Positions 20,233-60,922 of a DNA stretch of 64,000 bases are shown here, in pieces (within the stretch, counting starts at the first letter, position 1; the number at the start of each line of letters is the position of its first letter). The notes under the pieces are model-generated. The model had not been told where the DNA came from. It saw nothing but the letters and a program-made list of their open reading frames with translations, and made no database searches. Where the stretch lies: the NCBI RefSeq assembly GCF_002927635.1, contig NZ_PRDS01000003.1, positions 1 through 64,000 on the forward strand, given 5' to 3'. Both the position numbers and the translations under genes were made by a program. Source of the DNA: Albidovulum inexpectatum (GTDB lineage: Bacteria > Pseudomonadota > Alphaproteobacteria > Rhodobacterales > Rhodobacteraceae).

Positions 20233-21293
20233 GCGAAGCCCGCCTTGCCGATCCTGGGGCGGCGATCCGCCATCCTTTCGCGGACCCTCCCGCGCCCGGC
20301 GAGGCGGTCGAGATTGCAGAAGGAATCCTGTGGCTGCGTCTGCCGCTGCCGATGGCGCTGGACCATGTCAACCTGTATGCGCTGGACGATGGCGATGGCT
20401 GGACCCTGATCGATACCGGTCTGAACAGCCGCGCCTGCCGCGAGGCGTTGACGCGGGCTCTGGATGGTCCGCTGGCGGGCAAGGCCGTTCGGCGCGTCGT
20501 GCTGACACATTATCATCCCGACCATGTGGGGCTTGCGGGCTGGTTCCGCGAGCGCGGCGCCGAGCTGGTTGCCACCCGCACCACCTGGCTGTTCGCGCGG
20601 ATGCTGACGCTGGATGAACAGGGCCGTCCGCGCCCCGAGGTGCTGGACTTCTGGCGTGACGCGGGCATGCCGGCCGATGAGTTGGCGCGGCGCGCGGGCG
20701 AACGACCTTTTAACTTTGCCGACGTCGTGGCGCCGATCCCCCTGGGGTACACGCGCATTCGCGACGGGCAGGTGATCCGCATGGGCGGGCGTGACTGGCG
20801 CGTTCGCATCGGCGACGGCCATGCGCCGGAACACGCGACCTTCTGGGAGGAAGGCGGCGATCTGGTGATCGGCGGCGATCAGCTGCTGCCCGCGATATCG
20901 CCCAATCTGGGTGTTTATGCAACCGAACCGATGGCCGATCCGGTGGCCGAATGGCTGGGTTCGTGCCGGGCCTTTGCGACGGTCGCAGACGATGACCAAT
21001 TGGTCCTGCCCGGTCACCAGCTGCCCTTTACAGGCCTGTCCCGCCGACTGGGGCAGATGATCGACAATCACCTTGCCGCGCTGGCGCGGCTGGAAGACGC
21101 GCTGCAGGTTCCGCGAACGGCCGTCGAGTGCTTTCCGGTCCTGTATCGCCGTCGGATCGGACAGGGCGAATATACCCTGGCCCTGGTTGAAGCCGTGGCC
21201 CATCTGAACCATGTTTACCTCGCGGGTCGCATCACGCGGCAACGCCGCGAAGATGGAGCCTGGCTATGGAAGAGAAAGACGTCGGAAAGCTGA
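20229..21293 (+). CDS. Metallo-beta-lactamase-fold hydrolase
   Basis: A 354-residue MBL-fold enzyme with the metal motif THYHPDHVGLAGW near residue 95, a second ligand in GDGHAPEHATFW, an Asp ligand in GGDQLLPAISPN, and a distal His in LPGHQLPF. These suggest a two-metal hydrolase of the glyoxalase-II-like class. The start overlaps the acyl-CoA dehydrogenase stop (ATGA) and its own 3' end overlaps the next gene by 28 bp. The tight coupling suggests it acts on a product or by-product of the dehydrogenase, possibly a thioester, but this is inference. Confidence 0.88.
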   Translation: MSEARLADPGAAIRHPFADPPAPGEAVEIAEGILWLRLPLPMALDHVNLYALDDGDGWTLIDTGLNSRACREALTRALDGPLAGKAVRRVVLTHYHPDHVGLAGWFRERGAELVATRTTWLFARMLTLDEQGRPRPEVLDFWRDAGMPADELARRAGERPFNFADVVAPIPLGYTRIRDGQVIRMGGRDWRVRIGDGHAPEHATFWEEGGDLVIGGDQLLPAISPNLGVYATEPMADPVAEWLGSCRAFATVADDDQLVLPGHQLPFTGLSRRLGQMIDNHLAALARLEDALQVPRTAVECFPVLYRRRIGQGEYTLALVEAVAHLNHVYLAGRITRQRREDGAWLWKRKTSES

Positions 21294-21757
21294 TACAGAC
21301 CTCGGCCGAGGTCCACGAGGCCAGCGCCTTGCCCTGTGCCCGCGTCGTTCATACCGCGCCGGATGCCCCGCGCACAGCCGAGATGCAACCGTTGCCCGAC
21401 AGTGTCGCCGCCCAGCCGATCGAGGAAAAGAGCCCCGCCCAATGGGCCTATGAGCGGCTGATCCTTTACATTCGCAATTTCGAGGAACAGCTTGACGACG
21501 AACACGAAGTCGCCATGGGCTTTGTCGGCGGCGATACTGGCGTTCTTCGGATCGAGGGCCTGGGATATTTCGATCCCGACATCATCACATTCTACGGCGC
21601 GGGCGAAGATGGCGTGCGGATGCAACTGATCCAGCATGTCAGCCAGCTTTCGGTCATGCTGCGCGCCATGCCGAAGGCGCCGGAAGTCCAAGAGCCGCGC
21701 CGGATCGGCTTTCGGCTCGTCTCGGCGCTGGAGAGGGACAAGCAGGCCGACGGCTAA
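21266..21757 (+). CDS. DUF6173 family protein
   Basis: A 163-residue soluble protein. After a disordered first 55 residues comes the compact block SPAQWAYERLILYI, then MGFVGGDTGVLRIEG, YFDPDIITFYG, and LIQHVSQLSVML, which I recognise as DUF6173, common in Rhodobacteraceae and of unknown function. It overlaps the end of the metallo-hydrolase gene by 28 bp and is the last gene of the acyl-CoA dehydrogenase unit; tldD converges on it 5 bp later. Confidence 0.78.
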   Translation: MEEKDVGKLIQTSAEVHEASALPCARVVHTAPDAPRTAEMQPLPDSVAAQPIEEKSPAQWAYERLILYIRNFEEQLDDEHEVAMGFVGGDTGVLRIEGLGYFDPDIITFYGAGEDGVRMQLIQHVSQLSVMLRAMPKAPEVQEPRRIGFRLVSALERDKQADG

Positions 21758-21762
21758 GCCGA

Positions 21763-23184
21763 TCAGGTCGCCGAGCCGCCAACGGTCAGCCCACCGATCA
21801 GCAAGGTCGGCTGGCCCACGCCCACCGGCACCCACTGACCGGCCTTGCCACAATTGCCCATTCCCGGGTCCAGCGCCATGTCGTTGCCGATCGCCCGGAT
21901 GTTCAGCAGCGCCGTCGCGCCGTCGCCGATCAGCGTGGCGCCCTTGACCGGATCGCCGATCCGGCCGTTCTTCACGCGGTAGGCTTCGGTGCAGGAAAAG
22001 ACGAACTTGCCGTTGGTGATGTCCACCTGCCCGCCGCCAAAGCCCACGGCATAGATGCCATCCTTCAGCTCTGACAGGATGGCCGAAGGTTCGGCCGAAC
22101 CGCCCAGCATGTAGGTGTTGGTCATGCGCGGCATGGGGGCATGGGCAAAGCTTTCGCGCCGCCCGTTGCCCGTGGGGCTGACGCCCATCAGCCGCGCGTT
22201 CTGCCGGTCCTGCATGAAGCCCACCAGGATGCCGTCCTCGATCAGGACATTGCGGCCCGACGGCGTGCCTTCGTCGTCCACGGTGATCGAGCCGCGGCGT
22301 TCGGGGATCGTGCCGTCATCGACGACCGTCACGCCGGGCGCGGCGATGCGCTGTCCCATCAGTCCGGCAAAGGCAGAGCTCCGCTTTCGGTTGAAGTCGC
22401 CTTCCAGCCCATGCCCCACGGCCTCGTGCAGCAGGATGCCCGGCCAGCCCGGGCCCAGCACGACGTCCATCACGCCGGCCGGCGCGGGCACCGCGCGCAG
22501 ATTGACCGCGGCGATGCGCAGGGCCTCGCGCACCTGGGCCTGCCAATGGGCGGGGTCCAGCAGCGCGGCCAGTCCGTGCCGACCGCCGCCGCCGGCCGAT
22601 CCGGTCTCGCGCCGGCCGTCTTCCTCGACGATCACCGAGACGTTCAGACGCACAAGGGGGCGGATGTCGCTGACGGTCTCTCCCTCGGGGCGCAGGATGA
22701 CGACTTCCTGCAGCGAAGCCGCGATCGAGGCAGTCACCTGCACGACGCGTGGGTCCAGGGCCCGGGCAAAGGCATCGATTTCGCGCAGGGTTTCGACCTT
22801 CAGGCCAAAGCCTGCATCCGCCAGCGGATTCAGCTGGGGATACAGGTGCCGGTTGGTTCCGGGCGGGGGCGGGGCCATCACGCCGCCGCCATCGGCCACG
22901 GCCAGCCGGGCCGTCTGTGCCGCGCGGCGCAGGGCAGCCTCGGATATCTCGGTCGCATGGGCATAGCCCGTGACCTCGCCCCGCACGGCGCGCAGGCCAA
23001 AGCCCTCGGCCGCGTCGTAACTGGCCGAGCGCAATCGGCCGTCGTCGAAGACAAGCGATTCGGACCGCCGCCGTTCGAGGAACAACTCGCCGTCATCGGC
23101 CCCGGCGGTCGCCTCGCGCAGGATACGCAGGGCCGTGTCGCGGTCGATGAGGGTCTGGAACGGTGAAAAGCAGCTGTCTGTCAT
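21763..23184 (-). CDS. tldD: Metalloprotease TldD
   Basis: TldD pairs with TldE/PmbA to form a Zn protease that degrades unfolded peptides and processes microcin- or antitoxin-type substrates. The 473 residues contain the HExxxH zinc site in LLHEAVGHGLEGDF near residue 255 and the family-specific C-terminal GNCGKAGQWVPVGVGQPTL. Start at MTDSCFSPF; a more distant ATG would reach into the divergent cox promoter. No pmbA lies in the window. Confidence 0.95.
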   Translation of the reverse strand: MTDSCFSPFQTLIDRDTALRILREATAGADDGELFLERRRSESLVFDDGRLRSASYDAAEGFGLRAVRGEVTGYAHATEISEAALRRAAQTARLAVADGGGVMAPPPPGTNRHLYPQLNPLADAGFGLKVETLREIDAFARALDPRVVQVTASIAASLQEVVILRPEGETVSDIRPLVRLNVSVIVEEDGRRETGSAGGGGRHGLAALLDPAHWQAQVREALRIAAVNLRAVPAPAGVMDVVLGPGWPGILLHEAVGHGLEGDFNRKRSSAFAGLMGQRIAAPGVTVVDDGTIPERRGSITVDDEGTPSGRNVLIEDGILVGFMQDRQNARLMGVSPTGNGRRESFAHAPMPRMTNTYMLGGSAEPSAILSELKDGIYAVGFGGGQVDITNGKFVFSCTEAYRVKNGRIGDPVKGATLIGDGATALLNIRAIGNDMALDPGMGNCGKAGQWVPVGVGQPTLLIGGLTVGGSAT

Positions 23185-57687: not shown

Positions 57688-58713
57688 TTACCCGTGAATC
57701 AGGGCGATCGCCTCGTATTTCTTCAGGCACGGCCTTGCCGCGGATGCCGGAGCGTCGAGACTGGGTGCAAGGCCGGGAAACAGCATGCGCTGCTCTGCCA
57801 GAACCTCGGTTTCGGCATCGCTCAATGCGCTATCGGGGCCCAGAGCGTTGTCGGGATAGAAGCTTTCGCTTGGCACCCCGTTTGACAGAACGATCTCATG
57901 CCGGTCGAAAAGCAGATGAAAATAGGTGATCAGCATGCCTTCGGCACGGATGATGGTGCGCCCATTGACCATGTGCTTGGCTGCCACCAGAGCTTCGCGA
58001 AATCCGGTCAGCAATTCCAGCTTCGGACCGCGGACCAGCATGCGGTGATTGGGCGATACGCGCAGCTTGCCCTTGTTGCCGATCGCGCCATCGGCAAAGA
58101 CGACCGGCGCCATGTCGCCCCTGGCAAGACATACGCTGCGTGCCACATGACGAAGCGGTTGGGGGCCATGATCAAGCGTCATCACCAGATCGCCGGGCGA
58201 CAGCGATTCGATCGGGCGTTCTCCCCCGGGGGTCGCGATCATCGTGCCGCCGCAGAAGCAGGCAAGATTGGCATAGTCGACCTCGTTCCGGCCGATATTG
58301 AATTCTTGAATGAACGTGTATTGCTGCCCGGGTGTCAGGGGGCCTTCGGAAATCAGTGCGGTCGTTGTGTTGTTGCCTGAATTCGTGCCGCCGATCGTTA
58401 TCGAATAGACGCGAAGGCCGTTCGCATCCTCCAACCCGTAGTTGACGAATATCCGGGTGCCGGCAGGATAGGTGGTCCCATCTATGGTGACCGGGGCGTC
58501 CAGAACCTGATTCGCGGAACTGATTTCGTCGAACCCATCGTTGCCGCCATCGTTGACCTGGACCTGTATTGGCTGGGCGGTCGGTTTCAGTTGCAGGTTG
58601 AACGGAGGAGACCCCTGTGCACGCGCGCCTTGCTCGTCCGGCGGCGCAATGTTGCCGCCGGATGTCTCGAAATCCGAGAGCTGGTAGACCCATTGAAGCT
58701 TCTCTATCGTCAT
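57688..58713 (-). CDS. Hint-domain protein
   Basis: A 341-residue protein with a variable, Thr/Asn/Gly-rich N-terminal half (1-150) that has the look of a beta-sandwich, and a C-terminal Hint (Hedgehog/intein) domain. The Hint region starts at ACFCGGTMIATPGG, with the Cys that would be the splice/cleavage nucleophile, continues with GDLVMTLDHGPQPLRHV, and contains VSPNHRMLV. This is the autoproteolytic 'Hint_2' type common in Rhodobacteraceae, often on secreted proteins; no classical signal peptide is visible. Substrate and role are unknown. Confidence 0.85.
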   Translation of the reverse strand: MTIEKLQWVYQLSDFETSGGNIAPPDEQGARAQGSPPFNLQLKPTAQPIQVQVNDGGNDGFDEISSANQVLDAPVTIDGTTYPAGTRIFVNYGLEDANGLRVYSITIGGTNSGNNTTTALISEGPLTPGQQYTFIQEFNIGRNEVDYANLACFCGGTMIATPGGERPIESLSPGDLVMTLDHGPQPLRHVARSVCLARGDMAPVVFADGAIGNKGKLRVSPNHRMLVRGPKLELLTGFREALVAAKHMVNGRTIIRAEGMLITYFHLLFDRHEIVLSNGVPSESFYPDNALGPDSALSDAETEVLAEQRMLFPGLAPSLDAPASAARPCLKKYEAIALIHG

Positions 58714-58827: not shown

Positions 58828-58857
58828 CGAAAAAAGGCGGCGCCATTTGGCGCCGCC
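58828..58857 (-). terminator. Terminator of the DUF1127/CcsR transcript
   Basis: Perfect 9-bp stem GGCGGCGCC/GGCGCCGCC (58836-58844 with 58849-58857) with a four-base loop, followed on the minus strand by six T. It ends the small-RNA array. Confidence 0.93.
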
Positions 58858-59170
58858 AGTTGCAACCACGATCCAGGGAGGAGGATCGTCGCAATTCCGC
58901 AGGCAGGGCAGTGTCGCGGGGAGGAGGAACACGACACTGCCCGCCTTGCAAAGGCGGCCCGGGGAGGGGGATGGGCCGCCAGAGGGGCTGAAGTGCGGCG
59001 GTGGCTGGGAGGAGGAAGCCACCGCCGCTCTTCACGACGCCAACCCAGGGAGGAGGAGGGAGGTCGGCGCGTTCTTCAGGCCGTTCTGGCCAAACTGTGC
59101 GGCGGCATCAGGGAGGAGGAGGTGCCGCCGCAACTCGCGCGCCTCGAGGGGGAGGAGAAGAGGCGCGGAG
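58858..59170 (-). ncRNA. ccsR: CcsR/cuckoo-type small-RNA array: seven CCUCCUCCC-loop hairpins
   Basis: Downstream of the DUF1127 gene the minus strand holds seven hairpins, each exposing a CCUCCUCCC-like sequence in the loop. Stem positions: 59138-59145/59160-59167, 59098-59107/59123-59132, 59038-59045/59062-59069, 58995-59006/59017-59028, 58953-58960/58973-58980, 58906-58916/58932-58942, 58868-58873/58884-58889. One stem pairs fully only on this strand, through a G-U. In Rhodobacter sphaeroides, DUF1127 gene RSP_6037 (CcaF1) is followed by four homologous sRNAs CcsR1-4 with this anti-Shine-Dalgarno motif, induced by stress sigma factors. Gap lengths suggest four two-hairpin units here, the terminator being the last hairpin. 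Family known; unit limits inferred. Confidence 0.87.
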
Positions 59171-59175
59171 AAACC

Positions 59176-59391
59176 TTACTTGCCGTAGGCGGCTTCGATC
59201 GCGATCGACCGGATGGACGAGCGCGAGATGCCGAGATCGTTCAGTTCGCGGTCCGACAGCGCGGACAGTTCACGCACGGTCTGACGGTACATCTTGTAGC
59301 GGCGATGCGCGTCGCGCAGATTGCTGACAAGATTGCGGATCTGGTCGATAAGGCCGTGATCGGCCGTGCGGATCGTGTTCGAATAAGCCAT
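59176..59391 (-). CDS. DUF1127 small protein, CcaF1-like
   Basis: A 71-residue basic protein. The second half is the DUF1127 signature RQTVRELSALSDRELNDLGISRSSI followed by IRSIAIEAAYGK (the two runs are contiguous). In R. sphaeroides the homologue CcaF1 binds RNA and affects small-RNA maturation and turnover, and is transcribed with the CcsR sRNAs. Here the gene is directly followed by such an array and a shared terminator, so the same arrangement is kept. GAGGAAAAAG precedes the ATG. A candidate RpoH-type promoter is about 90 bp upstream. Confidence 0.93.
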   Translation of the reverse strand: MAYSNTIRTADHGLIDQIRNLVSNLRDAHRRYKMYRQTVRELSALSDRELNDLGISRSSIRSIAIEAAYGK

Positions 59392-59482
59392 GTCTTTTTC
59401 CTCGTTACTGACTGGCGGGGTCGTTCGTCGCTGATCCGTTCAGGTCCGATCGGCTGCGGCCCCGTCGATGCCGTTGCCCACA

Positions 59483-59510
59483 AGATGGCGCCAATGCTGC
59501 GCATGCACAA
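59483..59510 (-). promoter_or_regulatory. Candidate RpoH-type promoter of the DUF1127/CcsR locus
   Basis: TTGTGC and CCATCT on the minus strand, 16 bp apart. CCATnT is the usual -10 form for heat-shock/oxidative-stress sigma factors RpoHI/RpoHII, which are known to drive the R. sphaeroides locus. The -35 is only a partial match. Confidence 0.5.
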
Positions 59511-59731
59511 TCCCGGGAATGCTCAATGCCGCTATGCAGCAATTGCATGGCAAGCGTCACATTTCTGTTAATGCTTCCGGCATTGGCAGCTTGCCCGCAG
59601 TCTAGGCAGCAAGCAGATGGCCAGCGCGTTCGCGCGATACGGCTTACGCGACGCGGCGGGGGCTGCCATGTGCTTGCGCCTGGTTGCCTTGCCGATGGCC
59701 CCACCGGATTTGAGTTGCATGGAATTCCCGT

Positions 59732-60130: not shown

Positions 60131-60336
60131 AGGCACGATGAGGACGGGCTGACAAGGGCGGCAAGACCCAAACGGCGAAAGTCAGGTTTCATACAGGCAC
60201 CCGCTTTCATCGCACAAAAGATCCGGCGCGCAAGCGAGCAGACATCCCCCCCAGGTGGCAAGCGCAGTCGGACACCCCAGTGATGGGACGAGGGCGGCGG
60301 ATTGGGCAGTGGCAGCAGCCCGGTCCGCCGTTTTCC
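60131..60336 (+). ncRNA. upsM: UpsM-like small RNA in the mraZ 5' leader
   Basis: In R. sphaeroides the dcw cluster has a long 5' leader whose first part is released as the abundant sRNA UpsM. The same arrangement appears here: a candidate promoter ending at 60124, then about 206 bases, then a terminator-like hairpin with a short U-run at 60331-60334, about 70 bases before mraZ. Start and end are inferred from these signals; I did not have a homologue to align. A complete terminator would produce only the sRNA, and readthrough would transcribe mraZ. Confidence 0.6.
60295..60334 (+). terminator. Terminator-like hairpin in the mraZ leader
   Basis: CGGCGGA (60295-60301) pairs with TCCGCCG (60324-60330), an inner GGGC/GCCC stem extends it, and TTTTCC follows. 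The short U-run suggests partial termination. Confidence 0.7.
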
Positions 60337-60367
60337 ATCCCGGGACATCAGGCGGTTCGATCCGACC

Positions 60368-60394
60368 TGGGGGACGAAGGGGACAGGTAGGGAG
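60368..60394 (+). promoter_or_regulatory. G-run repeat overlapping the mraZ ribosome binding site
   Basis: TGGGGG, AGGGGA and AGGGAG follow at 10-11 bp spacing (60368, 60378, 60389). The last supplies the Shine-Dalgarno sequence of mraZ, 9 bases before the TTG start. The periodicity is like the upstream boxes, but the elements are only G-runs. Confidence 0.4.
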
Positions 60395-60403
60395 CGCGGG
60401 CCC

Positions 60404-60922
60404 TTGGCACGCAGGTTCAGAGGTTCCGAGACTTACAAGGTGGACGCGAAGGGTCGCGTCTCCATCCCGGCCTCGTTCCGCCGCGTGATCGAGGCATGCG
60501 ACCCAGACTGGAAGGAAGGTCTGCGCCCGAATATCGTCATCGTCTATGGTCCCGAAAGCCAGAAATTCCTTGAAGTCTATTCGATGGAGGCGATCCACGA
60601 GATCGACGAGCAGATCTCGCTGATGCAGCGCGGCTCTCCCGAACGCCTTCTGGTCGAAGAGCGCATGTACGGCCAATCGCTGGAAACCCAGATCGACGAT
60701 GATGGTCGCCTGACGATCCCCCAGAAGTTGCGCGAAAAGATCGGCCTGAAGAACGAAGCCTTCTTCATCTCGGCCGGGGATTACTTCCGCATCTGGAATC
60801 CCGAAACCTATGCCGAACACCAGGCGCGGCTCAGCCAGCGCGCGGCCAGCCAGTATCCCGAGGATTTCGATCCGCGCAGCCTGCTGCCGCCGCTGCCGGG
60901 GCGAACGGGCCATGGGGGCTAG
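60404..60922 (+). CDS. mraZ: Transcriptional regulator MraZ
   Basis: DNA-binding protein at the head of the dcw cluster, which represses its own operon in E. coli. The 172 residues contain two SpoVT/AbrB-like repeats, YKVDAKGRVSIPASFRRV and QIDDDGRLTIPQKLRE. The start is taken as TTG 60404: the protein then begins with the family's ARRFRGSE, GGGAG lies nine bases upstream, and an ATG 102 bp earlier falls in the leader hairpin. rsmH follows after three bases. Its likely operators lie 0.3-0.7 kb upstream. Confidence 0.93.
   Translation: MARRFRGSETYKVDAKGRVSIPASFRRVIEACDPDWKEGLRPNIVIVYGPESQKFLEVYSMEAIHEIDEQISLMQRGSPERLLVEERMYGQSLETQIDDDGRLTIPQKLREKIGLKNEAFFISAGDYFRIWNPETYAEHQARLSQRAASQYPEDFDPRSLLPPLPGRTGHGG

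Follow-up and report, generated by a model that had tools for sequence, protein, structure and literature searches.

A ccaF1–CcsR-type array of anti-Shine-Dalgarno hairpins in Albidovulum inexpectatum, with a candidate LysR-type promoter module upstream

The closest described counterpart of the locus considered here is the ccaF1–CcsR1-4 (CIN1) cluster of R. sphaeroides, in which the gene for a 71-aa DUF1127 protein is followed, on the same strand, by four small-RNA units and an intrinsic terminator (PMC10253847; this and the other published sources are cited from the portions of their text that were available). Gene and RNAs are co-transcribed there, and the transcript is processed by RNase E and by CcaF1 itself (PMC10253847). 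Hairpins with CCUCCUCCC in their loops are also found in the Sinorhizobium meliloti RNA alpha-r14/NfeR1 (RF02344), whose promoter contains a TGCA-N6-GCAT site upstream of the −35 element. This site, placed at −72 to −60 (or −57, as given at another point of the paper), is bound by the LysR-type regulator LsrB, and its mutation abolished both binding and promoter activity (PMC10746234). NfeR1 differs from the locus considered here in having three hairpins, a promoter of its own and repression by NtrC, and the available part of its description names no DUF1127 gene (PMC10746234). A further relevant system is the VtlR/LsrB regulon of Rhizobiales and Brucella, where a LysR-type regulator acts on DUF1127 genes as well as on the anti-Shine-Dalgarno AbcR small RNAs (PMC12595884; PMC8844928).

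The window, that is, the whole 64-kb stretch of A. inexpectatum DNA that was analysed, carries on its minus strand a locus of the R. sphaeroides anatomy. The initial annotation had described an upstream DUF1127 gene, seven successive anti-Shine-Dalgarno hairpins and an intrinsic terminator, and had compared them with the published order of CcaF1 followed by CcsR RNAs. Each of these elements was recovered: the gene at 59176-59391 with a PF06568 match, the hairpins at 58868-59170 with CCUCC in every loop and with the coordinates originally given, and the terminator at 58830-58857; the R. sphaeroides order is indeed as published (PMC10253847). The individual features, from the gene side, are as follows.

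59176-59391, minus strand: ccaF1-like gene, open reading frame for a 71-aa DUF1127 protein (PF06568, E 1.3e-13, 50.9 bits, cut-off 23.3)
59094-59174, minus strand: CcsR-like unit 1, hairpins 1 and 2 (RF02791, 44.3 bits, E 2.2e-9, below gathering)
59134-59170, minus strand: hairpin 1, loop TTCTCCTCCCCCTC (hairpin detector)
59098-59132, minus strand: hairpin 2, loop region CCTCCTCCTCCC (hairpin detector; covariation in 18 sequences)
58990-59074, minus strand: CcsR-like unit 2, hairpins 3 and 4 (RF02791, 34.2 bits, below gathering)
59037-59070, minus strand: hairpin 3, loop CCCTCCTCCTCCCT (hairpin detector)
58989-59034, minus strand: hairpin 4, loop TCCTCCTCCC (hairpin detector)
58900-58986, minus strand: CcsR-like unit 3, hairpins 5 and 6 (RF02791, 22.8 bits, below gathering)
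58953-58980, minus strand: hairpin 5, diverged loop ATCCCCCTCCCC (hairpin detector)
58896-58952, minus strand: hairpin 6, loop TTCCTCCTCCC (hairpin detector)
58830-58897, minus strand: CcsR-like unit 4, hairpin 7 and terminator (RF02791, 21.9 bits, below gathering)
58868-58889, minus strand: hairpin 7, loop TCCTCCCT (hairpin detector)
58830-58857, minus strand: intrinsic terminator and second hairpin of unit 4 (sequence, fold, position inside the RF02791 match 58830-58897)

All of these lie on one strand, and the first hairpin starts 5 bases past the DUF1127 stop codon. The terminator is made up of GGCGGCGCC-AAAT-GGCGCCGCC-T6. The gaps between hairpins had been listed only roughly; recomputed from the gene side they are 5, 1, 27, 2, 8, 0 and 6 bases, then 10 to the terminator, values that depend on the stem ends as called in this analysis. 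Variation among the loops, which had also been reported, is real: hairpin 5 has CCCCCUCCCC, and in hairpins 2 and 3 the loop motif is lengthened to CCUCCUCCUCCC. The suggestion that the units may thereby have diverged in target range found no clear support; CCUCC is kept in all seven loops. By the hairpin calls, the full CCUCCUCCC is present in four of the seven; in hairpin 7 all nine of its bases are there, the first two of them paired. In a duplex calculation all seven loops paired with Shine-Dalgarno-like strings (five were tried), the pairing of loops 5 and 7 being weaker for most of these strings. The array departs from R. sphaeroides CIN1 in that the full CCUCCUCCC is missing from three of its seven loops, its units score below the RF02791 gathering threshold, and its last unit has a single anti-Shine-Dalgarno loop.

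It is the clustering of these hairpins, not their single occurrence, that exceeds chance, lone ones being common in GC-rich DNA. Among 200 dinucleotide shuffles of the 351 bases concerned (58828-59178), 140 had no such hairpin, 56 had one and four had two; more than two never occurred. Elsewhere in the window the same detector found isolated CCUCC-loop hairpins, 10 on the plus and 5 on the minus strand, and shuffles of the whole window (n = 10) yielded 10-22 per strand. The sequence CCTCCTCCC has five copies in the window, all within the array, a number reached by none of 100 shuffles.

The grouping into four two-hairpin units, with the terminator serving as the eighth hairpin, had been deduced from the gaps and is supported by four consecutive matches to the CcsR1 model RF02791. 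A covariance-model search with the cuckoo family, which the initial annotation had recommended, thus did return four matches in a row, yet all of them fall below the gathering score of 65.3 bits and were found by an E-value threshold instead; at gathering scores no Rfam family matches the locus. Of the 16 CcsR1 matches that the 3.0-Mb genome yields at E <= 10, the four units are the top four; the remaining 12, the first of them at 20.1 bits, are weak (E 0.02 and worse). Counting against these assignments, 12 of 14 control genomes from unrelated organisms also give matches at this loose threshold; by score, therefore, units 1 and 2 alone are convincing, and units 3 and 4 rest on adjacency. The ar14 family (RF02344) has two matches here, which score 42.3 and 33.1 bits and fall below its gathering score of 58.8. 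Judged by its sequence, the locus is of the same type as CcsR1 but, scoring below gathering, is not filed as RF02791. Pairing within unit 1 was followed in an alignment of 18 genus sequences, whose rows were picked for both hairpins being detected, a choice that favours pairing: hairpin 2 has 95.7% of its cells paired, and both sides have changed in five of its 10 pairs, which one of 500 shuffles reached; its covariation score was reached by none of 500. Slid versions of the alignment gave at most 74% paired cells and at most one pair changed on both sides.

Arrays of this kind are frequent behind related genes. The comparison covered 215 DUF1127 loci, namely one from the genome itself, 30 from the family, 24 from the genus, 80 named ones (the best 80 of 156), the nearest of which come from Rhodobacterales, and 80 viral ones (the best 80 of 119). 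At least two chained anti-Shine-Dalgarno hairpins lie downstream of the gene in 86 of the 135 non-viral loci, with 2-17 hairpins per array; near-duplicates occur among them (for example L113 and L136), and the 86 arrays are therefore not independent cases. In these arrays the full CCUCCUCCC stands in the loop of 493 of 572 hairpins, and the stems differ. The window array, with its four canonical loops in seven, ties for 13th lowest among the 86 and is rather diverged. The 49 non-viral loci without an array are mostly Rhizobiales DUF1127 genes.

Several individual loci show how such arrays may vary. In L003, L010 and L028, which have 14, 13 and 17 hairpins, groups with the same loops repeat every ~114, 108 and 139 bases, a regularity that suggests recent unit-by-unit expansion. 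L022 (G007:C6, about 20600-22600) holds four consecutive DUF1127 matches with groups of anti-Shine-Dalgarno hairpins between them, possibly a tandem duplication of the whole locus. The idea of phage-borne arrays was rejected, since chained anti-Shine-Dalgarno hairpins lie downstream in none of the 80 viral-contig DUF1127 loci (the best 80 of 119). The end of one IMG/VR contig (L034, 1713-1793) bears two anti-Shine-Dalgarno hairpins and a short DUF1127 gene that, by eye, is preceded by a TGCA-N6-GCAT box; this stretch may belong to the host, at the edge of a prophage.

Upstream of the gene lies a second conserved element. When the ~260 bases preceding the gene are aligned across 20 genus loci, a strongly conserved block stands out, whose parts in the window are the following.

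59495-59547, minus strand: promoter module TGCR-N6-GCAT-N23-TTGTGCA-NNY-GCAGCA, found once in the genome (pattern search of family genomes)
59534-59547, minus strand: TGCAATTGCTGCAT, a TGCA-N6-GCAT box of LsrB/VtlR LysR type (T-N11-A), the same motif as the NfeR1 LsrB site
59524-59538, minus strand: TGCATAGCGGCATTG, 13 of 15 bases identical to the reverse complement of the Brucella VtlR box
59495-59510, minus strand: TTGTGCATGCGCAGCA, a −35-like TTGTGC with the conserved GCAGCA (column counts in 73 loci)
59482-59487, minus strand: −10-like CATCTT, 17 bases past TTGTGC (inspection and column counts)

If transcription starts 7 bases after CATCTT, the start would lie near 59475 and the LysR box at about −72 to −59. 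A 16-base core of the box is present with at most two mismatches in 69 of the 86 array loci; in base-wise shuffles of the 135 upstream regions (one each) it was never matched better than with four. The left arm TGC, which lies outside the core used for selection, is kept in 68-69 of these 69 boxes. The pattern TGCR-N6-GCAT occurs between −300 and +60 of the start codon in 84 of the 86 array loci, against 1.0 expected from shuffles. Its combination with TTGTGC, searched with a gap of 20-32 bases, is found in 73 of them, with a gap of either 22 (13 loci) or 23 (60 loci). What follows TTGTGC in these 73 loci is equally constant: an A in 71, two free bases, a pyrimidine in all 73 and then GCAGCA, five bases of which are kept in 73 and one in 72. 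The GCAGCA is possibly a second LysR contact. Counting against a LysR-type regulator, the module as searched was not found in 13 of the 86 array loci. Five of the 49 non-array loci carry it: L142, whose contig breaks off immediately, L132 and L148, with a single hairpin each, L208, with no hairpin, and L196, with an odd spacing of 30.

The exact 52/53-base pattern occurs in 243 of 394 Rhodobacteraceae genomes (215 of the 347 good-quality ones), with two sites in nine genomes by eye, and the reversed pattern has no match among the rows listed for the 394. Its absence in this exact long form from the other 151 counts against the regulator. A DUF1127 open reading frame lies within 450 bases of the module in 28 of 30 fetched matches, some of which were already in the locus set; among these 28 are L280, where hairpins are absent, and L279, which has a single one. 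At the remaining two, L285 (G113) and L301 (G149), the module is followed by nine and six anti-Shine-Dalgarno hairpins, and no DUF1127 frame was found over the same 450 bases, a picture that would fit loss of the protein gene and retention of the RNA array. Within the A. inexpectatum genome, the exact 15-base TGCATRGCDGCATTG is a single copy, upstream of ccaF1; with one mismatch allowed there are seven sites, this one included, and the reversed pattern has one. The six additional copies, which were set aside, each overlap a long open frame.

These loci bear on a different account of the hairpins, in which they would stabilise the DUF1127 mRNA, or form a terminator of several hairpins for it, and would not act in trans. 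Their position wholly within the 3′ UTR, ending at the terminator, would suit such a role. It is nonetheless very improbable: over the 572 hairpins of the 86 loci it is the loops that are kept while the stems differ, hairpins can follow the promoter where no DUF1127 frame is found (L285 and L301, two of the 30 fetched module loci), and in R. sphaeroides flhR mRNA is a CcsR target (PMC8307010). A CcsR-type array of trans-acting RNAs is the reading retained here.

The promoter module likewise admits of more than one explanation. It could simply be an extended RpoHI/RpoHII promoter without any LysR-type regulator. The R. sphaeroides ccaF1 gene does have an RpoHI/RpoHII promoter (PMC10253847), and TTGTGC-N17-CATCTT, judged by inspection, agrees with the −35 TTG given for another DUF1127 gene, rsp_0557, and less closely with its −12 TAT (PMC10673084). 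A sigma factor site, however, explains poorly why TGCA-N6-GCAT should be conserved upstream of −35, or GCAGCA within the spacer, and we regard a purely sigma-dependent module as rather unlikely. A widespread LysR-type regulator that switches the cluster on is preferred because the promoter element is strictly spaced and common to many relatives.

Comparison with published sites points to the VtlR/LsrB type. The Brucella VtlR box is CAATGCAGCCATGCA (PMC12595884); its reverse complement differs from the 69 boxes at one (29 loci), two (36) or three (four) of 15 bases, and from the window box at two. The NfeR1 form TGCA-N6-GCAT is found in 45 of the 69, and in 65 when R is allowed for A. The Rhizobiales VtlR consensus GCAT-N3-TG-N3-T (PMC7486931; PMC8844928), on the other hand, is matched by none of the 69 array-locus boxes, which counts against the regulator reading. 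Among the 35 of the 49 non-array loci that record titles assign to Rhizobiales, 25 match this consensus, each time in the register TGC-N7-GCAT, and TGCR-N6-GCAT is present in 32; base-wise shuffles averaged 0.45 for the consensus, 0.0 for the register and 0.2 for TGCR-N6-GCAT. On these counts the left half of the box is common to both orders and the right half differs, being mostly RGC-RGCATTG here instead of the N3-TG-N3-T of the VtlR/LsrB regulon.

A box of this kind could also be read as a site for PhaR, the polyhydroxybutyrate regulator, which would link CcsR RNAs to carbon storage. R. sphaeroides PhaR binds CTGCNNNGCAG (PMC12542648), and the PhaR consensus CTGCN3GCAG is matched exactly by 46 of the 69 boxes. 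The window box, CTGCATAGCGG, fails that consensus. Across the 69, moreover, positions of the PhaR consensus vary (T to C in seven, A to G in 16) while the left arm TGC outside the selection is constant in 68-69, and the central AT, free for PhaR, is constant in all 69, a point that weighs less, being part of the box selection. The Rhizobiales DUF1127 loci, too, have TGCR-N6-GCAT in 32 of 35. Control by PhaR is accordingly judged improbable, and the VtlR/LsrB-type site is kept.

Is there a protein that could bind it? A LysR gene after trxB is the published arrangement for vtlR (PMC7486931). In Agrobacterium tumefaciens MEJ076 a LysR gene does follow trxB. In A. inexpectatum this gene order fails, and the regulator was therefore looked for by sequence: no LysR frame adjoins trxB in this genome, G010 or G051 (three of three genomes, which counts against the assignment), and the genes that flank trxB in A. 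inexpectatum were read by eye as one of Lrp type and one for sulfate activation. The search led to a candidate at G000:C2:262754-263656, the reciprocal best match of Agrobacterium VtlR in a comparison with a single Agrobacterium genome (43% identity, 255 bits, next own regulator 131; in reverse, 251 bits against 137 for the runner-up). Its DNA-binding domain is identical to that of VtlR at 49 of 65 positions; for the two other LysR regulators of the genome that were compared, the figures are 26 of 64 and 27 of 67. The solved chain 9hh1 aligns with the MEJ076 LysR protein across all 300 residues (663 bits) and is also the best solved relative of the candidate (254 bits, next 114). We take this chain to be the LsrB structure of PMC11975290.

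In a 14-row tree the VtlR rows were grouped in 26% of bootstrap trees, although a single clade is not rejected either (p-AU 0.386), and among the NCBIfam matches listed no model scored above its cut-off for the candidate or for VtlR, YafC being best for both and far below. The candidate lies beside a PurL-like gene instead of trxB, as its counterpart in Paracoccus ferrooxidans lies beside purL; a homologue on an Octadecabacter plasmid adjoins other genes. That homologue (L308), a VtlR-like LysR gene 74% identical, sits near repABC on the 63-kb plasmid pOA307_63 of Octadecabacter antarcticus. The four redox cysteines of A. tumefaciens LsrB, C144, C236, C244 and C273 (PMC11975290), are missing: their columns read V, V, V and A in all three homologues aligned, that from G010 having a cysteine two places off the C236 column. 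Because of this the candidate is not filed as a redox-sensing LsrB. LsrB has been called unique to Rhizobiales (PMC11975290), while the regulator and the trxB–vtlR order have been called conserved in Alphaproteobacteria (PMC7486931); against this disagreement over the reach of VtlR/LsrB, exactly one gene at E <= 1e-60 was found here in 58 of 61 Rhodobacteraceae genomes, and in 56 of 56 good-quality ones. As a PhaR-type protein (PF07879) is present in 59 of the 61, A. inexpectatum included, presence cannot separate the two regulators.

The DUF1127 protein itself has relatives at E <= 0.001 in 58 of 61 Rhodobacteraceae genomes and in 21 of 22 genus genomes; plasmid records gave no match to CcaF1 at E 1e-5. 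Divergently oriented to the gene is mraZ (60302-60922, plus strand, PF02381, start codon uncertain), an arrangement also seen in the fetched flank of 23 of the 80 named DUF1127 loci (the best 80 of 156); a search of the mraZ leader for known RNA families gave two chance-level matches only. On the other side, ~120 bases beyond the array terminator and on the same strand, lies the gene for a Hint_2-domain protein (57688-58713, minus strand). The genome has a second DUF1127 gene (G000:C5:218168-218311, L002), downstream of which no array was found and upstream of which there is no close match to the box. Inspection of the conserved 5′ UTR by eye for a leader peptide revealed no conserved frame. 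A search for candidate target sites found GGGAGGAGG 3-10 bases 5′ of an ATG three times in the genome, against once for the reversed pattern.

Taken together, the locus is very probably a ccaF1–CcsR (cuckoo/CIN1) locus, with four units and a terminator on one minus-strand transcript. This transcript would comprise the DUF1127 mRNA and four two-hairpin units, the terminator doubling as the last hairpin. Homology and anatomy are the grounds on which the R. sphaeroides mechanism is transferred to the window: RNase E together with CcaF1 would cleave the 3′ UTR to release stable small RNAs, and the CCUCC loops exposed on them would pair with the Shine-Dalgarno sequences of target mRNAs and block these mRNAs under stress. 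Transcription would be switched on by a VtlR/LsrB-related LysR activator that sits about 60-70 bases ahead of the start, on TGCA-N6-GCAT; TTGTGCA-NNY-GCAGCA would serve either as a second LysR contact or as the −35. That CcaF1–CcsR transcription depends on such a regulator is a prediction from binding-site and protein similarity that we hold to be reasonably probable. The bolder proposal, that a VtlR/LsrB relative devoid of redox cysteines is the dedicated ccaF1–CcsR activator throughout the family and acts through a rigid two-part site, is one toward which the evidence tilts slightly.

The hairpin cluster, then, is of a previously described type, one more, somewhat diverged, CcaF1–CcsR array. 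The upstream module is less expected, and it raises the question of what regulator the CcsR RNAs answer to in addition to RpoHI/RpoHII. Neither the module nor VtlR-type control of CcsR was found in print by the titles and the opening parts of abstracts of the papers listed, and the primary CcsR papers could contain either. The analysis provides a candidate for this regulator, together with its site and the bases to be mutated. If the proposal is true, the link between a LysR-type regulator, DUF1127 proteins and anti-Shine-Dalgarno small RNAs would predate the split from Rhizobiales, and its input would have changed from thiol redox to another signal.
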